Assembly (NCBI GenBank): GCA_028868515.1
Contig: JAGWUI010000001.1
Coordinates: 1 to 64,000, forward strand
Reading direction: 5' to 3'
Source of the DNA: Gammaproteobacteria bacterium
Lineage (GTDB): Bacteria; Pseudomonadota; Gammaproteobacteria; Pseudomonadales; Moraxellaceae
DNA: 64,000 nt
In this document: one piece after another, positions 3,663 through 16,707 of the stretch
Layout of the letters: each line of letters opens with the position of its first letter
Numbering within the stretch: the stretch's first letter is position 1
Position numbers and translations under genes: made by a program
The notes under the pieces: model-generated
The model's database searches: none
Seen by the model: the letters and a program-made list of their open reading frames with translations, nothing else
What the model was told of the DNA's origin: nothing

Positions 3663-4517
3663 TTAATTTGTTGAATGTGTTAATGCATCAAAAGCACTGA
3701 TATTTCTATCACCAGTTGGTGCATAGGTTGCGCTGGCTGAACCATCAGCGTTGGTATAGGTAATCACTGGGCGACGTGATGATACTGCTCGCGCACCAAG
3801 CTCTCGATCGTTATCAATACGACCACCAGTGATTTTGATGCTATTGTGATATAGATTATTGAATCGGCTCATGACACGTCTGACGTAATCTTGGGTTTCC
3901 CTAAATGGTGGGATCCCATGATATTTATCAACATTTCCTTCGCCAGCGTTATATGCAGCAATCGCAAGCTCATGGTTGTTATTATAGCGTTTCATCAGAA
4001 AGTTTAAGTATTGAACGCCGCCATTGATATTTTGTGCAGGATCATAAGAGTCGTTGACGAAGAAACGACGCGCAGTTGCAGGCATGAGCTGCATCAGCCC
4101 CTGAGCACCCACGGGGGAGCGTGCAGACGGATTAAAACCTGATTCAGTATGCATAATGGCCTTGATCAAACCTTGTTCAACGCCATAGTTATTTGCAGCA
4201 TGAGTGATCAAGTCATCGTAAGCATTACGATTTTTGCTGTAACTTGGTAAGACAGACGATTCGCTACCACCCCAGTTATGATAAGCATGGACGTTGGTAT
4301 CGGCATACCAAGTAACCTTGGCTTGAGTTGCATACTCTCCAAATGTACCTTCTTGTTTTTTATTACCACAAGGAACACTGGTCAAAAGTACATCATTATC
4401 TTTATTTTTACAGGTATAGAGATTGGCTGCTTGTGCATTTTGCATAAACAAAACGAAGCTAACAGGCAACAGCGCACTGCTGAATGCGATTCGAAGAAAC
4501 TGGTTAAACTTAGGCAT
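3663..4517 (-). CDS. secreted lytic transglycosylase with DUF4124-like N-terminal region
   Basis: A 284-residue exported protein. Residues 1-30 are a signal peptide ending in AQA before ANLYTC. Residues about 31-60 carry a small Cys-pair module (YTCKNKD...VPCGNK) like the DUF4124 domain. Residues about 100-220 form an SLT (goose-lysozyme-fold) domain: the catalytic Glu is in HTESGFNP at about residue 125, then GAQGLMQLMPATA, AIAAYNAGEGNV and ETQDYVRRV follow. It cleaves the MurNAc-GlcNAc bond of peptidoglycan in the periplasm with formation of 1,6-anhydro ends. The C-terminal 60 residues are low in motif content. There is no lipobox, so it is probably soluble in the periplasm. Confidence 0.9.
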   Translation of the reverse strand: MPKFNQFLRIAFSSALLPVSFVLFMQNAQAANLYTCKNKDNDVLLTSVPCGNKKQEGTFGEYATQAKVTWYADTNVHAYHNWGGSESSVLPSYSKNRNAYDDLITHAANNYGVEQGLIKAIMHTESGFNPSARSPVGAQGLMQLMPATARRFFVNDSYDPAQNINGGVQYLNFLMKRYNNNHELAIAAYNAGEGNVDKYHGIPPFRETQDYVRRVMSRFNNLYHNSIKITGGRIDNDRELGARAVSSRRPVITYTNADGSASATYAPTGDRNISAFDALTHSTN

Positions 4518-5861: not shown

Positions 5862-7355
5862 TTACTCATCATCTTCAGGACGATAAAATTCTGGTGATAA
5901 ATTGGTAAATCGTGTGAATTGACCTTGGAACGCTAAACGTACCGTACCGATTGGACCATTACGCTGCTTACCGATAATGATTTCTGCTGTCCCCATTTCT
6001 TTCGACTCTTTGTTATACACTTCGTCGCGATAAATAAACATAATTAAGTCAGCATCCTGCTCAATCGCACCAGACTCACGAAGGTCAGACATAATTGGAC
6101 GTTTATTCGGGCGATTTTCCAGAGAGCGGTTAAGCTGAGAGAGAGCAATCACAGGGCAATTCATTTCTTTCGCCAGCGCTTTTAAGCTACGCGAAATTTC
6201 AGAAATCTCACCAACGCGGTTATCGCCCATGCCAGGCACTTTCATCAACTGCAAATAGTCGATCATGATCACGCCAAGTGAGCCATTGTGCATTTTTGCA
6301 ATACGGCGCGCGCGCGCGCGGACTTCGTTCGGAGGTAACGCAGAGCTATCATCAATATATAGATGCTTGTCTTGAAGCTGCCCCATCGTACTGGTGAGCC
6401 TGATCCAATCACCTTCTTCCAGACGACCAGAACGCAGTCGACCTTGATCAATTGAACCAAAAGAAGAGAGCAGACGCACAGCAATCGAATCAGCAGGCAT
6501 TTCCATTGAAAAGACAAGCGCTGGTAAATTACTGCCAAAAAGCACACTTTCAACCAGATTCATGGCAAATGTTGTTTTACCCATACTTGGACGGGCAGCG
6601 ACAATAATCAAATCGCCTTTTTGCATCCCTAGCGTTTTATTATCTAATTCAATAAAACCTGTGGTTAATCCAGTGATTGCGCTATCACTACCTTGTAGTT
6701 CCTCAACGGTATTAAGGACACTCTTGAGTACGTTATTGATGGCTTTGGGACCGCTTTCGGCTGTGCGATTATTATGTTGTTCGCTAATTGCAAATACTTT
6801 GCTTTCTACCGAATCCAAGATTTCGCTGACTGGTTGTCCTTTTGCATCATAGGCTGTGTGGAGTACATCATTGCCCACGGCGATGAGATCTCGAAGCACG
6901 GCATGTTCACGGACTTTTTCAGCATAAGCGGGCAGATTAAATAAACTGGCAGGGCTTTCTGCGAGAAGCTGCATCAAATAGGCTTCGCCGCCGCTATCTT
7001 CAAGCAGATGCTGACCACCGAGCCAGTCGCTCACCATAACTGCATCGTAAGGCATATTTGCCGCGGCTAAGTGACCGATGGCTTTGTAAATTAAACGATG
7101 ACGGATCGCATAAAATGAATTTTCAGTAATAATTTCACTGACTTGCTCCCATGATTCGCTGATGGTCATGAGTGCTGCTAAAACAGCTTGTTCCATTTGC
7201 AAGCTATGTGGCGGAACGCGCAGTTCGCGTGTTGCATCTGGGCTGATTTCAGTTGCATTTTTTTTATTGTTTTTTCGAGGAAGTTTTGCACTGTTCTCAT
7301 TCGCGGCATTAGGTAGTGTTGCAACACGACCAAGCGAAGCTGAGGATTCTGACAT
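5862..7355 (-). CDS. dnaB: replicative DNA helicase
   Basis: The ring helicase of the replisome unwinds DNA ahead of the fork, moving 5'-3' on the lagging strand. The ATG at 7353-7355 (MSESSAS) has an AGG seven bases upstream and gives 497 residues; an in-frame TTG at 7361 would add two. An N-terminal unstructured basic stretch (residues 20-40) precedes the DnaB N domain (about 45-150). The RecA-type core begins near residue 225 with Walker A (ARPSMGKTT, about 253-262) and Walker B (MIDYLQLM), followed by SQLNRSLENR and the DLRESGAIEQDAD region. No intein is present. The insertion sequence at 7554 lies 200 bp upstream, separating the gene from rplI. Confidence 0.97.
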   Translation of the reverse strand: MSESSASLGRVATLPNAANENSAKLPRKNNKKNATEISPDATRELRVPPHSLQMEQAVLAALMTISESWEQVSEIITENSFYAIRHRLIYKAIGHLAAANMPYDAVMVSDWLGGQHLLEDSGGEAYLMQLLAESPASLFNLPAYAEKVREHAVLRDLIAVGNDVLHTAYDAKGQPVSEILDSVESKVFAISEQHNNRTAESGPKAINNVLKSVLNTVEELQGSDSAITGLTTGFIELDNKTLGMQKGDLIIVAARPSMGKTTFAMNLVESVLFGSNLPALVFSMEMPADSIAVRLLSSFGSIDQGRLRSGRLEEGDWIRLTSTMGQLQDKHLYIDDSSALPPNEVRARARRIAKMHNGSLGVIMIDYLQLMKVPGMGDNRVGEISEISRSLKALAKEMNCPVIALSQLNRSLENRPNKRPIMSDLRESGAIEQDADLIMFIYRDEVYNKESKEMGTAEIIIGKQRNGPIGTVRLAFQGQFTRFTNLSPEFYRPEDDE

Positions 7356-7545
7356 GTTCAAACCTGTACTATAAATAAAAAATTAAAGCTAAATATTCGT
7401 GAAACTCATGGTACTAGTTTGACTACAAACCAACTCATGAATGGTCGTTAAGAATACTATTAATTGCTCTGAGATAGCAGTGGGGAATTGATAATAATTG
7501 TCTGATTGATGGCTTTTGATGCTATTTATGAAATAGCGAGAATTA

Positions 7546-7553: not shown

Positions 7554-8291
7554 GGGTCTTAGGAAGTTAAGCACGATTTAAGGTGTGGTAACTTACTAAG
7601 ATGCAAACAAAAAATAGGTACTATCGCCGTTCAAGAATCACAGAAGCTAAATTTAGACAGCTTGTTCGCTGTTTTGCTCTCGATTTTACGGCATCTAGCA
7701 CAGCAGAATTGATCGGAGTTTCGGTCCGATCAACGAACTCTATCTTTCTAAAAATACGTCATCGTATCGCTGAGCACTGTGAACTTGAATCGCCTTTACA
7801 GGGTGCGGTTGAGGTCGATGAATCTTACTTTGGTGCTCACAGGGTTCGAGGCAAACGTGGTCGTGGAGCTTATGGCAAAACAATCGTTTTTGGTTTGTTA
7901 AAACGACAAGGTAAAGTCTACACAGAAATTGTTCCTGATTGCTCCAAAACCACGCTACAAGGCATTATTCGCGGTCATGTTGACCTTGGTACTGTCATTC
8001 ATTCCGACGGTTGGCGTGGTTATGAAGGTTTAGTTGATATTGGCTATGATAAGCATTTTAGGGTGAATCATGGTGCGAATGAGTTTGCCAATGGTGACCG
8101 CCACATCAACGGCATTGAATCTTTCTGGAGTTATGCAAAAAGACGATTAGCGAAGTTTAATGGTGTCGCGAAACATACGTTCTATTTGCACTTGAAAGAA
8201 ACAGAGTATCGTTTCAATCATCGTCGTGATAACGTGTATCTTGGGCTGCTTAAACTTCTCAGAAATAATCCGCTTTAGCTTCCTAAGACCC
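7554..8291 (+). mobile_element. IS1595-family insertion sequence, complete with 8-bp target duplication
   Basis: A 738-bp element. The left end at 7554 begins GGGTCTTAGGAAGTTAAGC and the right end, read inward from 8291, begins GGGTCTTAGGAAGCTAAAGC, so the first 13 bases match exactly. It is flanked by TTATTTTT on both sides. It contains one intact transposase. It landed in AT-rich DNA between the terminator of the rpsF-rpsR-rplI operon and dnaB, so it interrupts an otherwise conserved gene neighbourhood without breaking a gene. Confidence 0.93.
7601..8278 (+). CDS. IS1595-family transposase
   Basis: A 225-residue DDE-type transposase for the element at 7554-8291. The N-terminal region includes an HTH-like stretch (SSTAELIGVSVRSTNSIF). 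The catalytic core has VEVDESYFGAHRVRGKRGRG, VIHSDGWRGYEGL and HINGIESFWSYAKRRLAKFNG, the same order of motifs as in the transposase at 20. The ORF is complete, starts with ATG at 7601 and stops 13 bases before the right terminal repeat tip. The intact frame and exact target duplication suggest a recent insertion. Confidence 0.93.
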   Translation: MQTKNRYYRRSRITEAKFRQLVRCFALDFTASSTAELIGVSVRSTNSIFLKIRHRIAEHCELESPLQGAVEVDESYFGAHRVRGKRGRGAYGKTIVFGLLKRQGKVYTEIVPDCSKTTLQGIIRGHVDLGTVIHSDGWRGYEGLVDIGYDKHFRVNHGANEFANGDRHINGIESFWSYAKRRLAKFNGVAKHTFYLHLKETEYRFNHRRDNVYLGLLKLLRNNPL

Positions 8292-8424: not shown

Positions 8425-8871
8425 TTATTCAGCAATGATGGTAACCAATACTTCAGCAGTTACATCATGGTGAACTTGAATCGCAACATGGAACTCGCCA
8501 GTATGACGGAGTGCGCCATTTGGTAGGCGTACTTCTGATTTTTCAACTGGAGTGCCAGAAGCAGTCAGTGCATCAGAAATATCACGTGTACCAACTGAAC
8601 CGAACAGTTTGCCTTCATCACCAGCTTTAGAGGTGATAACGACGTTCAATTCGTTCAATTTAGCTGCACGAGCTTGCGCTTGTGCCAAGTTCTCAGCTTC
8701 TACACGCTCAAGTTCAGCACGGCGTGCTTCAAATGATGCAGTATTTGCTTCAGTTGCAGAAACAGCTTTGCCCTGAGGGATCAGAAAGTTACGACCGTAG
8801 CCAGACTTTACAGAAACCTTGTCACCGAGTTGACCCAAATTAGCGATGCGTTGCAGTAGAATAACGTCCAC
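8425..8871 (-). CDS. rplI: 50S ribosomal protein L9
   Basis: A 148-residue protein of standard length that binds domain V of 23S rRNA and stretches out from the large subunit. It begins [19 protein letters not shown] and has the conserved N-domain segment [16 protein letters not shown], a long central helix rich in Ala/Glu (residues about 45-75) and a C-terminal domain with [12 protein letters not shown]. It is the last gene of the rpsF-rpsR-rplI operon, 11 bases after rpsR, with a Shine-Dalgarno AAGGAG before its ATG. Confidence 0.98.
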
Positions 8872-9123: not shown

Positions 9124-9516
9124 TTATGCTTCGTCAGCGATCATGTCAGATGAGGACACATCATCGTTACGCTGTGCTTTACGCGCGCGTTTTTCTTCAG
9201 CACTCTTAGCGAGTAGTGATTCTTCGGTGATGGCTTCATCGCGACGGATGATGAGGTTACGGATGATGGCATCGTTATAGCGGAACAGCTCTTCGAGTTC
9301 ATCAAGAGTTGTTTGGCCACATTCGACGTTCATCAAAATGTAGTGTGCTTTGTGAATCTTGTTGATTGGGTAGGCGAGTTGACGACGACCCCAGTCTTCA
9401 AGGCGATGGACTTGGCCACCCGCTTCTTTGATCTGAGTCAGGTAACGCTCGACCATGCCAACAACTTGATCGCTTTGGTCTGGATGAACCAGCAATACGA
9501 TTTCGTAGTGACGCAT
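9124..9516 (-). CDS. rpsF: 30S ribosomal protein S6
   Basis: The reading frame opens further upstream, but the start at 9514-9516 ([15 protein letters not shown]) has an AAGGAG site at ideal distance and matches the family's N-terminus, giving 130 residues. The ferredoxin-like fold segments are [24 protein letters not shown] and MNVECG, and the C-terminal tail is acidic and polar ([10 protein letters not shown]), as in Glu-tailed S6 proteins. First gene of the operon with rpsR and rplI. Confidence 0.97.
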
Positions 9517-9545
9517 GTATAGCTCCTTACGGTTTGGACAGCCCC
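9517..9545 (-). promoter_or_regulatory. possible S6:S18 autoregulatory leader at the rpsF ribosome-binding site
   Basis: The minus-strand leader just before rpsF reads GGGGCTGTCC, then AAACCGTAAGGAGC. An ACCG segment next to the Shine-Dalgarno is the feature bound by the S6:S18 complex in the known rpsF leader motif. The fold was not computed, so this is only a resemblance. Confidence 0.35.
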
Positions 9546-9638
9546 TATCTAATCTATAAGACGATAGAAGCAAGGAGGCACGCAAAAAATATGATCATGA
9601 AACAATAAATTATGCGTGATCGCAAAAGCGAAGCGCGG

Positions 9639-12736: not shown

Positions 12737-15124
12737 TTATTTCTTTAAACCTGTTTGATTTTGTGCCAAGAAGAACCAAGTATCGAGTACTGAGTCAGGA
12801 TTTAATGATACAGAGTCGATACCTTGTTCCATGAGCCATAATGCCAAATCTGGGTGATCTGATGGGCCTTGACCACAGATTCCAATATATTTTCCAGCTT
12901 TACGACATGCTGAGATTGCCATGGATAATAATGCTTTAACAGCATCGTCACGCTCATCAAAGAGATGCGATACGATACCAGAGTCACGATCCAAGCCAAG
13001 TGTTAGCTGAGTCAAGTCATTTGAACCAATTGAGAAACCATCGAAATGTTCCAAAAATTGTTCAGCGAGCAGAGCGTTGGTCGGCAATTCGCACATCATG
13101 ATGACGCGCAAGCCATTTTCACCACGACGTAAACCATTTTGTGCAAGTAGTTCGATGACGCGTGCTGCTTCACCCACAGTCCGCACGAATGGAATCATGA
13201 TTTCGACGTTGGTTAAGCCCATTTCTTCGCGTACTTTTCTGAGAGCACGACATTCGAGCTCGAAACAGTCGCGGAAGTTATCAGAGACATAACGACTTGC
13301 GCCACGGAAACCGAGCATTGGATTTTCTTCTTCAGGCTCGTATAGTTTTCCACCGATCAAGTTCGCATATTCATTCGATTTAAAATCTGACATCCGCACA
13401 ATAACAGGTTTATTGGCAAACGAAACTGCTAGAGTAGAAATGCCTTCCACTAGTTTTTCGACAAAGAAATCAACTGGTGTTGCGTAGCCAGCAGTACGTG
13501 CAAGCACAGCTGCGCGTGTTTCGCGTGGGAGGCTATCGATATTAATCAATGCTTTTGGATGCACGCCAATCATACGGTTAATGATGAATTCTAAACGTGC
13601 TAATCCAACACCTTGATTTGGAATTTGTGCAAAATCAAATGCACGATCAGGATTACCCACATTCATCATAATTTTGAATGATAACGGTGGCATTGAGTCG
13701 ATAGAGTTCTTTTGAACTTCGAAATCTAAAGCACCTTCATAGATATAACCTGTATCGCCTTCGGCACATGATGCAGTGACTTCGCTACCATCCACCAATA
13801 CTTCAGTCGCGTTACCGCAGCCAACAATCGCAGGCACGCCAAGTTCACGGGCAATAATCGCAGCATGACATGTGCGACCACCGCGATTGGTAATAATCGC
13901 AGACGCGCGCTTCATGACAGGTTCCCAATCTGGATCGGTCATGTCCGATACTAGAACATCACCGTTTTGCAGTGTATCCATTTCTTTGATTGAGTTGATG
14001 ATACGTACCTTACCAGATCCAATGCGTTGACCGATTGAGCGGCCTTCACACAAAACTGTGCCTTTTTGCTTGAGCAAATAACGCTCCATCGTGCCGACAT
14101 TTTGACGACTCTTGACTGTTTCTGGGCGAGCTTGGACGATGTAAATTTTTCCATCGTCGCCATCTTTTGCCCACTCGATGTCCATTGGCGATTGATAATG
14201 TTTTTCAATAATCAGGGCTTGTTTTGCAAGTTCCAGTAGCTCTTGATCATTTAAAGAAAACTTGAGACGGTCAGATTTGTCGACATCAACGACAACTGTA
14301 GAATGTCCTGTGACACCACTGTCGCCATAGATCATTTTTTGATGCTTGCTGCCTAAATTACGGCGCACGATCGCATGTTTACCTTGCTCAAGTAATGGCT
14401 TGGAGACGTAGAACTCATCAGGATTGACCGCACCTTGTACCACAGTCTCACCTAAGCCATAAGCAGCAGTGATAAAGACTACATCGCGGAAACCAGACTC
14501 CGTATCAAGTGTAAACATCACGCCAGCTGCACCAGTTTCACTGCGAACCATGCGTTGAATGCCCGCAGAGAGTGCAACACCTTGATGCGCGTAACCTTGA
14601 TGAACGCGATAAGCAATTGCGCGATCATTAAATAGGGAAGCAAAAACTTCTTTAATGGCGACGAGTACGTTATCAATGCCACGAATATTGAGGAAGGTTT
14701 CTTGCTGTCCTGCAAAAGATGCATCAGGAAGATCTTCTGCGGTCGCGCTTGAGCGAACTGCAACTGCAATATTAGGATTTCCAGCAGAGAGTTCTGTGAA
14801 CGCATTGCGCACATCCTGCTCTAATTCAGGAGTCAGTGGTGTCTCGATGATCCATTGACGGATTTGAGCACCTGTTTTAATTAATGCTTGTACATTGTCG
14901 ACGTTGAGATCATTTAGTGCAGCTTGGATGCGTGCATTTAGACCACTTTGTTCTAAAAAATCACGGAATGCTTGCGCAGTTGTTGCAAACCCACCTGGAA
15001 CACTAACACCAGCACCAGAAAGATGGCTGATCATTTCACCTAAGGACGCATTTTTGCCGCCAACTCGGTCAATATCATGTTTGCCAAGTTTGGCGAGGTT
15101 TACTACACGTGCTTCCAAGATCAT
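12737..15124 (-). CDS. ppsA: phosphoenolpyruvate synthase
   Basis: Makes PEP from pyruvate and ATP (releasing AMP and phosphate) for gluconeogenesis. From the ATG at 15124 it is 795 residues, close to the usual 792; an in-frame TTG at 15133 would add three. A GGGAG sits only two bases before the ATG, which is unusually close. Residues about 15-340 are the ATP-grasp domain ([35 protein letters not shown]). The swivelling phosphohistidine is H420 in [15 protein letters not shown]. The C-terminal PEP-binding barrel has [20 protein letters not shown] and the catalytic-Cys segment [12 protein letters not shown]. Monocistronic, with a terminator after it and a long non-coding region before it. No ppsR regulator gene is seen next to it. 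Confidence 0.97.
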
Positions 15125-15658
15125 AACTCCCAAGTTAGTTTTAGCAGATGATGCTGCTAGTGAGAAATTCGCTCATGTTTCGATGCGAATAACGGGGTGG
15201 TTCAAAAACGATATTTGTCTATAAAGCCAAGCTATTTTAATAAGATCATACTTATATGCTGTTATCGATCTCCGATAGCGCATACCTTTAACCCAATAAA
15301 TAGATTTTATACAGGTTTTTTATGATTTCACGCTTTTTGTATGCGACAAAAAATTAGGCTCTACTATAAGGCCAATAACGTTGCATGACAAACGTATCAA
15401 GGTATCGATTTGAGTATTGTTGTGTGAATTATGAACAAGCGAAATATTGTTTGACAATTCGAGCTTTGAATCGACTTTAAATACGCAAAATAAAGTGGTG
15501 AACAATCGATGATCACTTTGTCTGAACAAGTGTCTCGAAATAGATTTATTTTCAATAAAAAAACGAATCGTAAATTGTTTGACAAAAATTAAGGAAATTT
15601 ACGGTTTCTGAAGAATGTAAAAACGTATGTCCGTCAGTAATAACAAGGGTTTGGCGTG

Positions 15659-15693
15659 TTGTCCACAAAAATTGTGGATGGATCTGTGGACAA
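15659..15693. promoter_or_regulatory. three DnaA-box-like 9-mers
   Basis: TTGTCCACA (15659), TGTGGATGG (15673) and TGTGGACAA (15685) lie within 35 bases. The outer two are inverted copies of each other and each differs from TTATCCACA by one base; the middle one differs by two. Confidence 0.6.
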
Positions 15694-15869
15694 CTACAGG
15701 CTTGACAGTGTTAAACGCCGCATTTGTAAGGCGAATGAACAAATTGATCAATATTTAATCAATGAAAATTATTTAATAAATACATATGTTTATTTATTGC
15801 AAGTGCTTCGCTTTTAACCAAACTATAGAAAATTAGTTATTTGTTCATGAAAAAGACAATCGCATGGAT

Positions 15870-15878
15870 TGTGGATAA
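15870..15878 (-). promoter_or_regulatory. consensus DnaA box
   Basis: TGTGGATAA is the exact complement of the high-affinity DnaA box TTATCCACA, on the far side of the AT-rich segment from the three imperfect boxes. Confidence 0.65.
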
Positions 15879-16089
15879 GTTTTATGCACTTTTTTTACCT
15901 AGAAGTGTGTTGTAAATCACACAATTGGTGGTTGTATATTTTTTATTCATATCTAGATGCTGTTTTCGTCTAAATGGGATTAATTTCACGATTAGTTGTA
16001 AAAAATGACTTCAAATTGCATTTCGGGTTGGCATTTTTGAGCCTAATCGGCTAGGCTTTCACCCTCATTTATATAGCCACTCACTCACT

Positions 16090-16707
16090 ATGCCAGACCA
16101 GCTTATTCAAGGTAATGCAGGGACTCTACAAGTTCGTCCGTTATGGCAGGAGTCAGATGCGATTGCTGTGATTTGTCATCCGCATCCTTTGATGGGGGGG
16201 ACTATGGATAATAAAGTGGTGACGACTCTTGCGCGTTTTTTTCGCAATCAAGGAGTTTCTGTTATTCAGTTTAACTTTCGTGGAGTGGGCGGAAGTACTG
16301 GAGTCTATGCAGATGGTGTGGGTGAAGTTGATGATTTCTTTAGCGTGCTGAACTGGGCAGCAGGTGAAAGCACAGCAAGGCGATTATATGTCGCGGGATT
16401 TTCATTTGGTGGTTATATTGCCGCCGCTGGATGTGACCGTTTGCTCAAAGAAAATCCACATCATTTTGAGTTTGAGAAATTATATCTGGTTGCACCTGCT
16501 GTAGAAAACTTCCCAATGGCGACATTGAGCTTACCTTCAGATACATGTGTGATTGTTGGCGCAGAAGATGAGGTTGTTTCGCCACAAAAAATAATTGATT
16601 GGGCGAATGAGCGTCAGTTTGATTTAGCGATTATTCCAGAGTGTGGCCATTTTTTTCATGGGCATTTACCTGAAATTGGATCGCAGTTGGAGCATCGATT
16701 TCCATGA
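16090..16707 (+). CDS. alpha/beta hydrolase (COG2945-type)
   Basis: A 205-residue cytoplasmic hydrolase. CHPHPLMGGTMDNKVV near residue 30 and FNFRGVGGSTG near 62 are typical of the small COG2945 family. The nucleophile Ser is in GFSFGGY at about residue 105, the acid is probably in VGAEDEVVSP, and the His lies in CGHFFHGHL near the C-terminus. The substrate is unknown; relatives are described only as esterase-like. Its last four bases overlap the start of zapE (ATGA), so the two are translationally coupled. Confidence 0.85.
   Translation: MPDQLIQGNAGTLQVRPLWQESDAIAVICHPHPLMGGTMDNKVVTTLARFFRNQGVSVIQFNFRGVGGSTGVYADGVGEVDDFFSVLNWAAGESTARRLYVAGFSFGGYIAAAGCDRLLKENPHHFEFEKLYLVAPAVENFPMATLSLPSDTCVIVGAEDEVVSPQKIIDWANERQFDLAIIPECGHFFHGHLPEIGSQLEHRFP

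Follow-up and report, generated by a model that had tools for sequence, protein, structure and literature searches.

A probable DARS-type DnaA-box element, duplicated and terminus-proximal, in a Moraxellaceae genome

Introduction

What is a compact cluster of DnaA boxes doing between two divergent genes, in a genome whose dnaA gene lies elsewhere? The cluster occurs between ppsA and an alpha/beta hydrolase gene in a 64-kb stretch of DNA (here called the window) from a gammaproteobacterium of the family Moraxellaceae. A sequence-only reading of the window had offered two kinds of answer, namely a replication origin displaced from dnaA or a DnaA-binding site resembling the datA or DARS loci of Escherichia coli.

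Few non-coding elements are known that set when replication starts, and DARS sites belong to that small group. In the parts of PMC5742627 drawn on here, DARS1 and DARS2 share boxes I to III at equal spacing, with box I opposed to II and III, and the core binds ADP-DnaA, leading to release of ADP; the portion of PMC8682772 cited here gives the same account for boxes I and II, where ADP-DnaA binds head to head. The E. coli sites lie between oriC and the terminus; initiation timing is moderately inhibited, again according to part of PMC5742627, when DARS2 is relocated close to the terminus. The literature searched, at the level of titles and abstracts, describes no DARS for the family Moraxellaceae, which is not a claim of absence from print, and the DARS papers found there concern E. 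coli and its nearer relatives.

Results

The locus and its boxes

The window is carried by the 282-kb contig C87 of a 94-contig draft genome (G000). Genes left of the ppsA–hydrolase gap, including ppsA, rpsF (9124-9585), rplI (8425-8871) and dnaB (5862-7361), lie on the minus strand, and those to the right (the hydrolase gene, zapE, nirB, nirD, and two narK-type genes) on the plus strand. The earlier claim that genes diverge for about 12 kb leftward and 11 kb rightward is therefore sound apart from one sizeable plus-strand gene on the left. This is an IS1595-type transposase gene (7601-8278), which sits between dnaB and rplI and opposes the direction of its neighbors. Neither a structured RNA (zero Rfam matches at the gathering threshold) nor a tRNA was found in the window.

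We recovered all four of the DnaA-box-like 9-mers first noticed, at 15659, 15673, 15685 and, as an exact match, 15870 (Table 1); the window as a whole holds 25 boxes with at most one mismatch, two of them exact. The very AT-rich run of about 90 bases described among the boxes is also real, as the G+C-poorest 90-mer of the gap starts at 15750 and contains 17 G+C, a value as low as in only 0.09% of the 90-mers of the window. GATC is present in this DNA as claimed, but without enrichment, the gap holding 5 sites against 4.1 expected from the window.

Table 1. Features of the candidate element, its flanks and the second repeat family (window coordinates unless a contig is named)
Feature	Position	Strand	Remarks
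DnaA box I of the DARS-type core	15659..15667	+	TTGTCCACA; 1 mismatch to TTATCCACA
DnaA box II	15673..15681	-	CCATCCACA; 2 mismatches; 5 bp past box I, orientation opposite to box I
DnaA box III	15685..15693	-	TTGTCCACA; 1 mismatch; 3 bp past box II
Box IV	15870..15878	-	TTATCCACA; exact DnaA box
TTGACA block	15702..15707	+	exact in 16/18 aligned copies
TAAGG block	15727..15731	+	exact in 16/18 aligned copies; AAGG in 18/18
AT-rich stretch	15735..15824	.	79% A+T
Position of the sister genus's IHF consensus	15780..15792	+	+121 from box I; degenerate here, 3 mismatches counted by eye
ppsA–hydrolase intergenic gap	15134..16089	.	divergent genes; houses the element
ppsA, phosphoenolpyruvate synthase	12737..15133	-	flanking gene
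alpha/beta hydrolase gene	16090..16707	+	flanking gene; beside copy A in 4/4 genus genomes
Second family, G000	C7:5103, C7:2174, C51:2710, C79:29613		
Second family, G001	C1:642219, 643401, 655275, 959163		
Second family, G002 and G003	G002 C163 (two), C18; G003 C88		all second-family loci: L282-L293

When all of C87 was scanned for forward-reverse-reverse triples at 121 spacing pairs (0-10 x 0-10 bp, at most two mismatches per box), a single triple was returned, that of boxes I to III in the window, with gaps of 5 and 3 bp. A cluster arisen by chance would be conceivable in intergenic DNA of this kind, where a high A+T content raises the frequency of TTATCCACA-like words, yet a lone triple in 282 kb across the 121 spacing pairs, kept in all four genomes of the genus with homologous flanks of about 150 bp, leaves accident with practically no probability.

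The element is not the origin of replication

An origin lying away from dnaA, in which the AT-rich stretch served for unwinding, would account for the box cluster, the AT-rich DNA, and the divergent genes on both sides. It would also suit a weak change in GC skew around the candidate, where single kilobases are near zero or slightly negative just to the left and positive to the right. This local change fits the switch of gene strand, and in 10-kb bins the skew is positive on either side, so that no clear skew switch coincides with the strand switch.

The dnaA gene is indeed not adjacent to the cluster, as had been stated; it lies on contig C18, and upstream of it (C18:14161-14454) seven boxes with at most one mismatch, three of them exact, fall within 294 bp. 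Six such boxes, again with three exact, occupy the same place in G001, the one complete genome of the genus (3,777,352 bp). This dnaA-linked oriC resembles the window's element in having DnaA boxes in AT-rich DNA and differs from it in the number and density of its boxes, in having no DARS-type triple, and in lying at the skew switch of the complete relative. There, in 40 samples of 20 kb each, skew is negative before dnaA (~3.674 Mb) and positive beyond it, returning to negative values at ~1.7-1.8 Mb, while the counterparts of the candidate, which we call copies A and B, lie at 1.969 Mb, or 0.90 of the half-chromosome away from oriC.

On C87 itself, cumulative skew climbs through the candidate to a maximum near 130 kb, and close to this maximum, ~106 kb from the candidate, we identified a dif-like 28-mer (C87:122152, minus strand). 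The scan, which covered sampled parts of G001, contigs C87 and C17, and a piece of C18, found a second such site in G001 (C1:1624125, minus strand). Both lie near the skew maximum. Against what we take to be the dif consensus they have 5 mismatches each, all within the first 7 bases; their right part is intact and their left arm divergent (AAGTCGTA / ATGTCGTA). The skew maximum and dif-like site in C87, together with the place at 1.969 Mb in G001, put the candidate near the terminus. As far as sequence can tell, skew, the dnaA-linked cluster and the dif-like site thus rule out a displaced oriC, to which the unenriched GATC also lends nothing, and we regard it as a vanishingly small prospect. 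A skew switch lying elsewhere, which the sequence-only reading had named as grounds for rejecting an origin, is what G001 shows. On present evidence the AT-rich stretch beside the boxes is probably not an unwinding element.

The three-box core has the geometry of E. coli DARS1 and DARS2

For comparison we used the regions of E. coli K-12 that we take to hold DARS1 (between bioD and uvrB) and DARS2 (upstream of mutH). At 256 spacing pairs and at most two mismatches per box, each yielded one triple, forward-5-reverse-3-reverse, as in the window; at none of the 256 pairs did the datA region or the dnaA-linked clusters of G000 and G001 yield any. At three mismatches per box, triples also appeared at other spacing pairs in the E. 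coli and dnaA-linked regions (3 to 9 pairs in each), but among the regions compared the 5/3 pair was still confined to DARS1 and DARS2.

The window's element shares with these sites the three-box core, with box I opposite to II and III and gaps of 5 and 3 bp, as well as a non-coding, chromosomal place outside oriC, here the ppsA/hydrolase gap. Its boxes I and III are nearer the consensus than those of the E. coli sites, while box II, with two mismatches, counts against the assignment. Further differences from E. coli are a degenerate IHF site in the window copy, different neighboring genes, the presence of related copies A and B that share flanks, and a position close to the terminus instead of mid-arm. 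In E. coli DARS2, IHF-like matches occur at +93 and +109 from box I, 3 bp apart, in keeping with the part of PMC4245941 cited here, which places IBS1-2 of DARS2 3 bp apart. DARS2, unlike DARS1, has a regulatory part in addition to the core, comprising IHF binding at a set distance and the Fis sites FBS2-3. A mid-arm place is a trait of the E. coli DARS sites and lies outside the core definition; at 0.90 of the half-chromosome in G001, and 106 kb from the dif-like site here, the site fits a DARS by anatomy and not by E. coli position.

The second of the two earlier suggestions, a datA- or DARS-like site, is consequently supported in its DARS half and disfavored in its datA half. A datA-like or passive titration site would merely bind DnaA or promote its ATP hydrolysis, lowering the pool of free active DnaA, and a 220-bp span holding four boxes, with a flank that is AT-rich and IHF-like, would be in keeping with this; anatomy alone, moreover, does not give the direction of nucleotide exchange. 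The E. coli datA locus is likewise a DnaA-box cluster with an IHF site away from oriC, according to the part of PMC5742627 consulted. Its region, however, has no forward-5-reverse-3-reverse triple even at three mismatches per box, in a comparison of layouts made through the DARS-type triple alone, and titration needs no two fixed gaps, although every class-wide match described below keeps them. We consider a titration site unlikely. By the likeness of its box layout to that of the E. coli sites, the element is probably a DARS-type DnaA-reactivating sequence and not an origin.

The 5/3 layout is invariant among matches in the family and the class

The family was searched with a pattern built of box I, the greater part of box II and a portion of box III, in which either gap could take any length from 0 to 15 bp. 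It matched 71 of 348 family genomes, with the 5/3 layout in 75 of 75 matches, and its reversed control matched none of the 348. Matches were confined to 2 of 16 genera, these being the window's own genus (4/4 genomes, two copies each) and a large sister genus (67/175 genomes, one copy each), by its size probably Acinetobacter. The conservation in relatives that the sequence-only reading had proposed as a check was accordingly found, the core being present in all four genomes of the genus.

A class-wide pattern, with box I as TTATCCACA and the gaps again free, does not match the window itself. Among 274 genomes evenly drawn from the class it matched 85, in 72 of 222 genera, and 101 of 101 matches had the 5/3 layout (reversed control, 0 of 274). 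Strict patterns had no exact match in 277 of the 348 family genomes and 189 of the 274 class genomes. Since both gaps are invariant in both sets of matches, the spacing appears to be under selection, and the sequence evidence suggests that a core of three boxes spaced at 5 and 3 bp has been retained in many genera of the class.

Fixing the gaps and allowing two mismatches brought the family count to 274 of 348 genomes (reversed control, 2), a figure that includes other inverted box pairs. In named bacterial and archaeal genomes a fixed-gap pattern matched at least 117 stretches; the 80 matches listed come mostly from beta- and gamma-proteobacteria, with a few from outside these groups that may be due to chance.

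Copies A and B and their changing neighbors

Each genome of the genus has two copies. Copy A, the one in the window, adjoins the hydrolase gene in 4/4 genomes, as judged by sequence and frames, and at the position of box IV its counterparts in the other three genomes carry an aligned TGTGG-A-type box. The surroundings of copy B were viewed in three of the four genomes. In G000 it lies on contig C17 with a flavin oxidoreductase gene on one side and a YbjN gene on the other, and G003 is alike. In G001 a distance of 659 bp separates the two copies, which lie between hydrolase and oxidoreductase; the far-side neighbor there is the flavin oxidoreductase gene, not ppsA.

In the sister genus, the element has a PP-loop gene, presumably TtcA-like, beside it at all five loci inspected and a transglycosylase-like gene at four of the five (Pfam was run on one pair). 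The window encodes a homolog of that transglycosylase at 3837-4421 (64% identity over 197 residues), 11 kb from the candidate, which hints at a shared neighborhood. An alignment of 18 copies, 8 from the genus and 10 from the sister genus, shows conservation outside the core in a TTGACA block, a TAAGG block, an AT-rich block, and the position that holds the IHF consensus in the sister genus. The first two of these (15702-15731), seen in copies from two genera, correspond to no known DARS part.

These observations bear on the possibility of a DnaA-controlled promoter region whose boxes act in cis on ppsA or on the hydrolase gene. A site between divergent genes, a TTGACA block kept in most aligned copies, and a hydrolase neighbor that is constant beside copy A are all what such a region would show. 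The core, however, stays constant while neighbors vary, on the far side of copy A in G001, at copy B, and at the sister-genus sites. Because the neighbors change, a cis effect on a neighboring gene is disfavored, and we think it quite improbable.

Sister-genus genomes also contain other inverted DnaA-box pairs with a 5-bp gap at different fixed neighborhoods, beside Usp/O-methyltransferase genes (L229, L232, L235) and beside a response-regulator-like gene (L230, L234). Within the genus, inverted TTATCCCCA-type pairs followed by TGTGGATA(A/G)-type boxes occur in near-tandem in G000 (C92:79641 and 80207, 566 bp apart), and such inverted pairs are found on C116 and C210 of G003 as well (loci overall L247, L258, L254, L256).

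The sister-genus sites were estimated to lie at 0.46-0.59 of the half-chromosome in seven single-contig genomes, which are 7 of the 25 searched for dnaA, five of the seven lengths being rounded. The positions of dnaA and the element in that genus hinted at a rule of orientation relative to the fork; G001 deviates from it, and the rule was dropped.

IHF, Fis and the DnaA machinery

In the sister genus an IHF consensus stands at +120/+121 from box I, matched with at most one mismatch in 28 of 28 distinct loci (30 loci minus 2 identical) and perfectly in 20 of them. Perfect matches at any downstream position were present in 21 of the 35 sequences scanned, against 2.6 +/- 1.5 in 40 rounds of dinucleotide shuffles, a contrast to be read with the loci being related and non-independent. 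At the homologous place in the window's genus, a match with at most one mismatch was found in 1 of 7 copies scanned. DnaA, the IHF-beta protein and Fis score above cut-offs in all four genus genomes, in each of which an Hda-like protein spans its whole model and scores below the curated cut-off.

A second family of dispersed repeats

The genus also carries a dispersed repeat of 60-80 bp in which a forward-5-reverse-3-reverse triple is followed by GTGGAAC-type repeats (Table 1). Its boxes I and II are of the TTACCCMCA type, and box III is TGTGGATAA in 11 of 12 copies. The copies number 4 in G000, 4 in G001, 3 in G002 and 1 in G003, and on the 5/3 frame the 12 deviate from their common form at 0 to 3 of 27 bases. 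The repeat is intergenic at the four loci whose frames were viewed in full, and in G001 its copies stand at 0.40, 0.40, 0.40 and 0.56 of the half-chromosome. It came to light through a looser search of the genus, at up to three mismatches, which gave 24 matches in all, with 1 in the reversed control. These repeats may be further DARS-type sites, which we offer as a lead and not as a result.

Discussion

By analogy with E. coli DARS, we hypothesize that DnaA would occupy boxes I and II in head-to-head fashion and that box III would lengthen the array. ADP-DnaA held in this array would shed its ADP, depart as apo-DnaA and then take up ATP, which would renew the potential for initiation, acting in trans, at the true oriC next to dnaA. 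Box IV and the AT-rich part, including its IHF-like position, may bend and regulate the complex. At the window copy, DnaA binding, ADP release, an effect on initiation, and any part played by IHF or Fis are thus proposed from the likeness to E. coli, and recharging of DnaA for oriC through ADP release at boxes I and II with III is the most likely role of the element.

Among DARS sites, the duplication and the terminus-proximal place would be unusual traits. Taken together with the second family, they raise the tentative and rather doubtful idea that the genus runs a distinct multi-copy layout for DnaA reactivation, made up of a duplicated, terminus-proximal DARS pair and a separate dispersed 5/3-triple repeat. 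If this were true, the DARS pair would be doubled only as replication nears completion, and the recharging of DnaA would be tied to the end of replication, as against its middle in E. coli.

More generally, because the core seems to be kept across many genera of the class, a pattern search should be enough to find candidate DARS sites, and studies of DnaA reactivation could extend beyond the enteric bacteria. A naturally duplicated, terminus-proximal DARS would offer a direct test of how chromosomal place affects the cell cycle.
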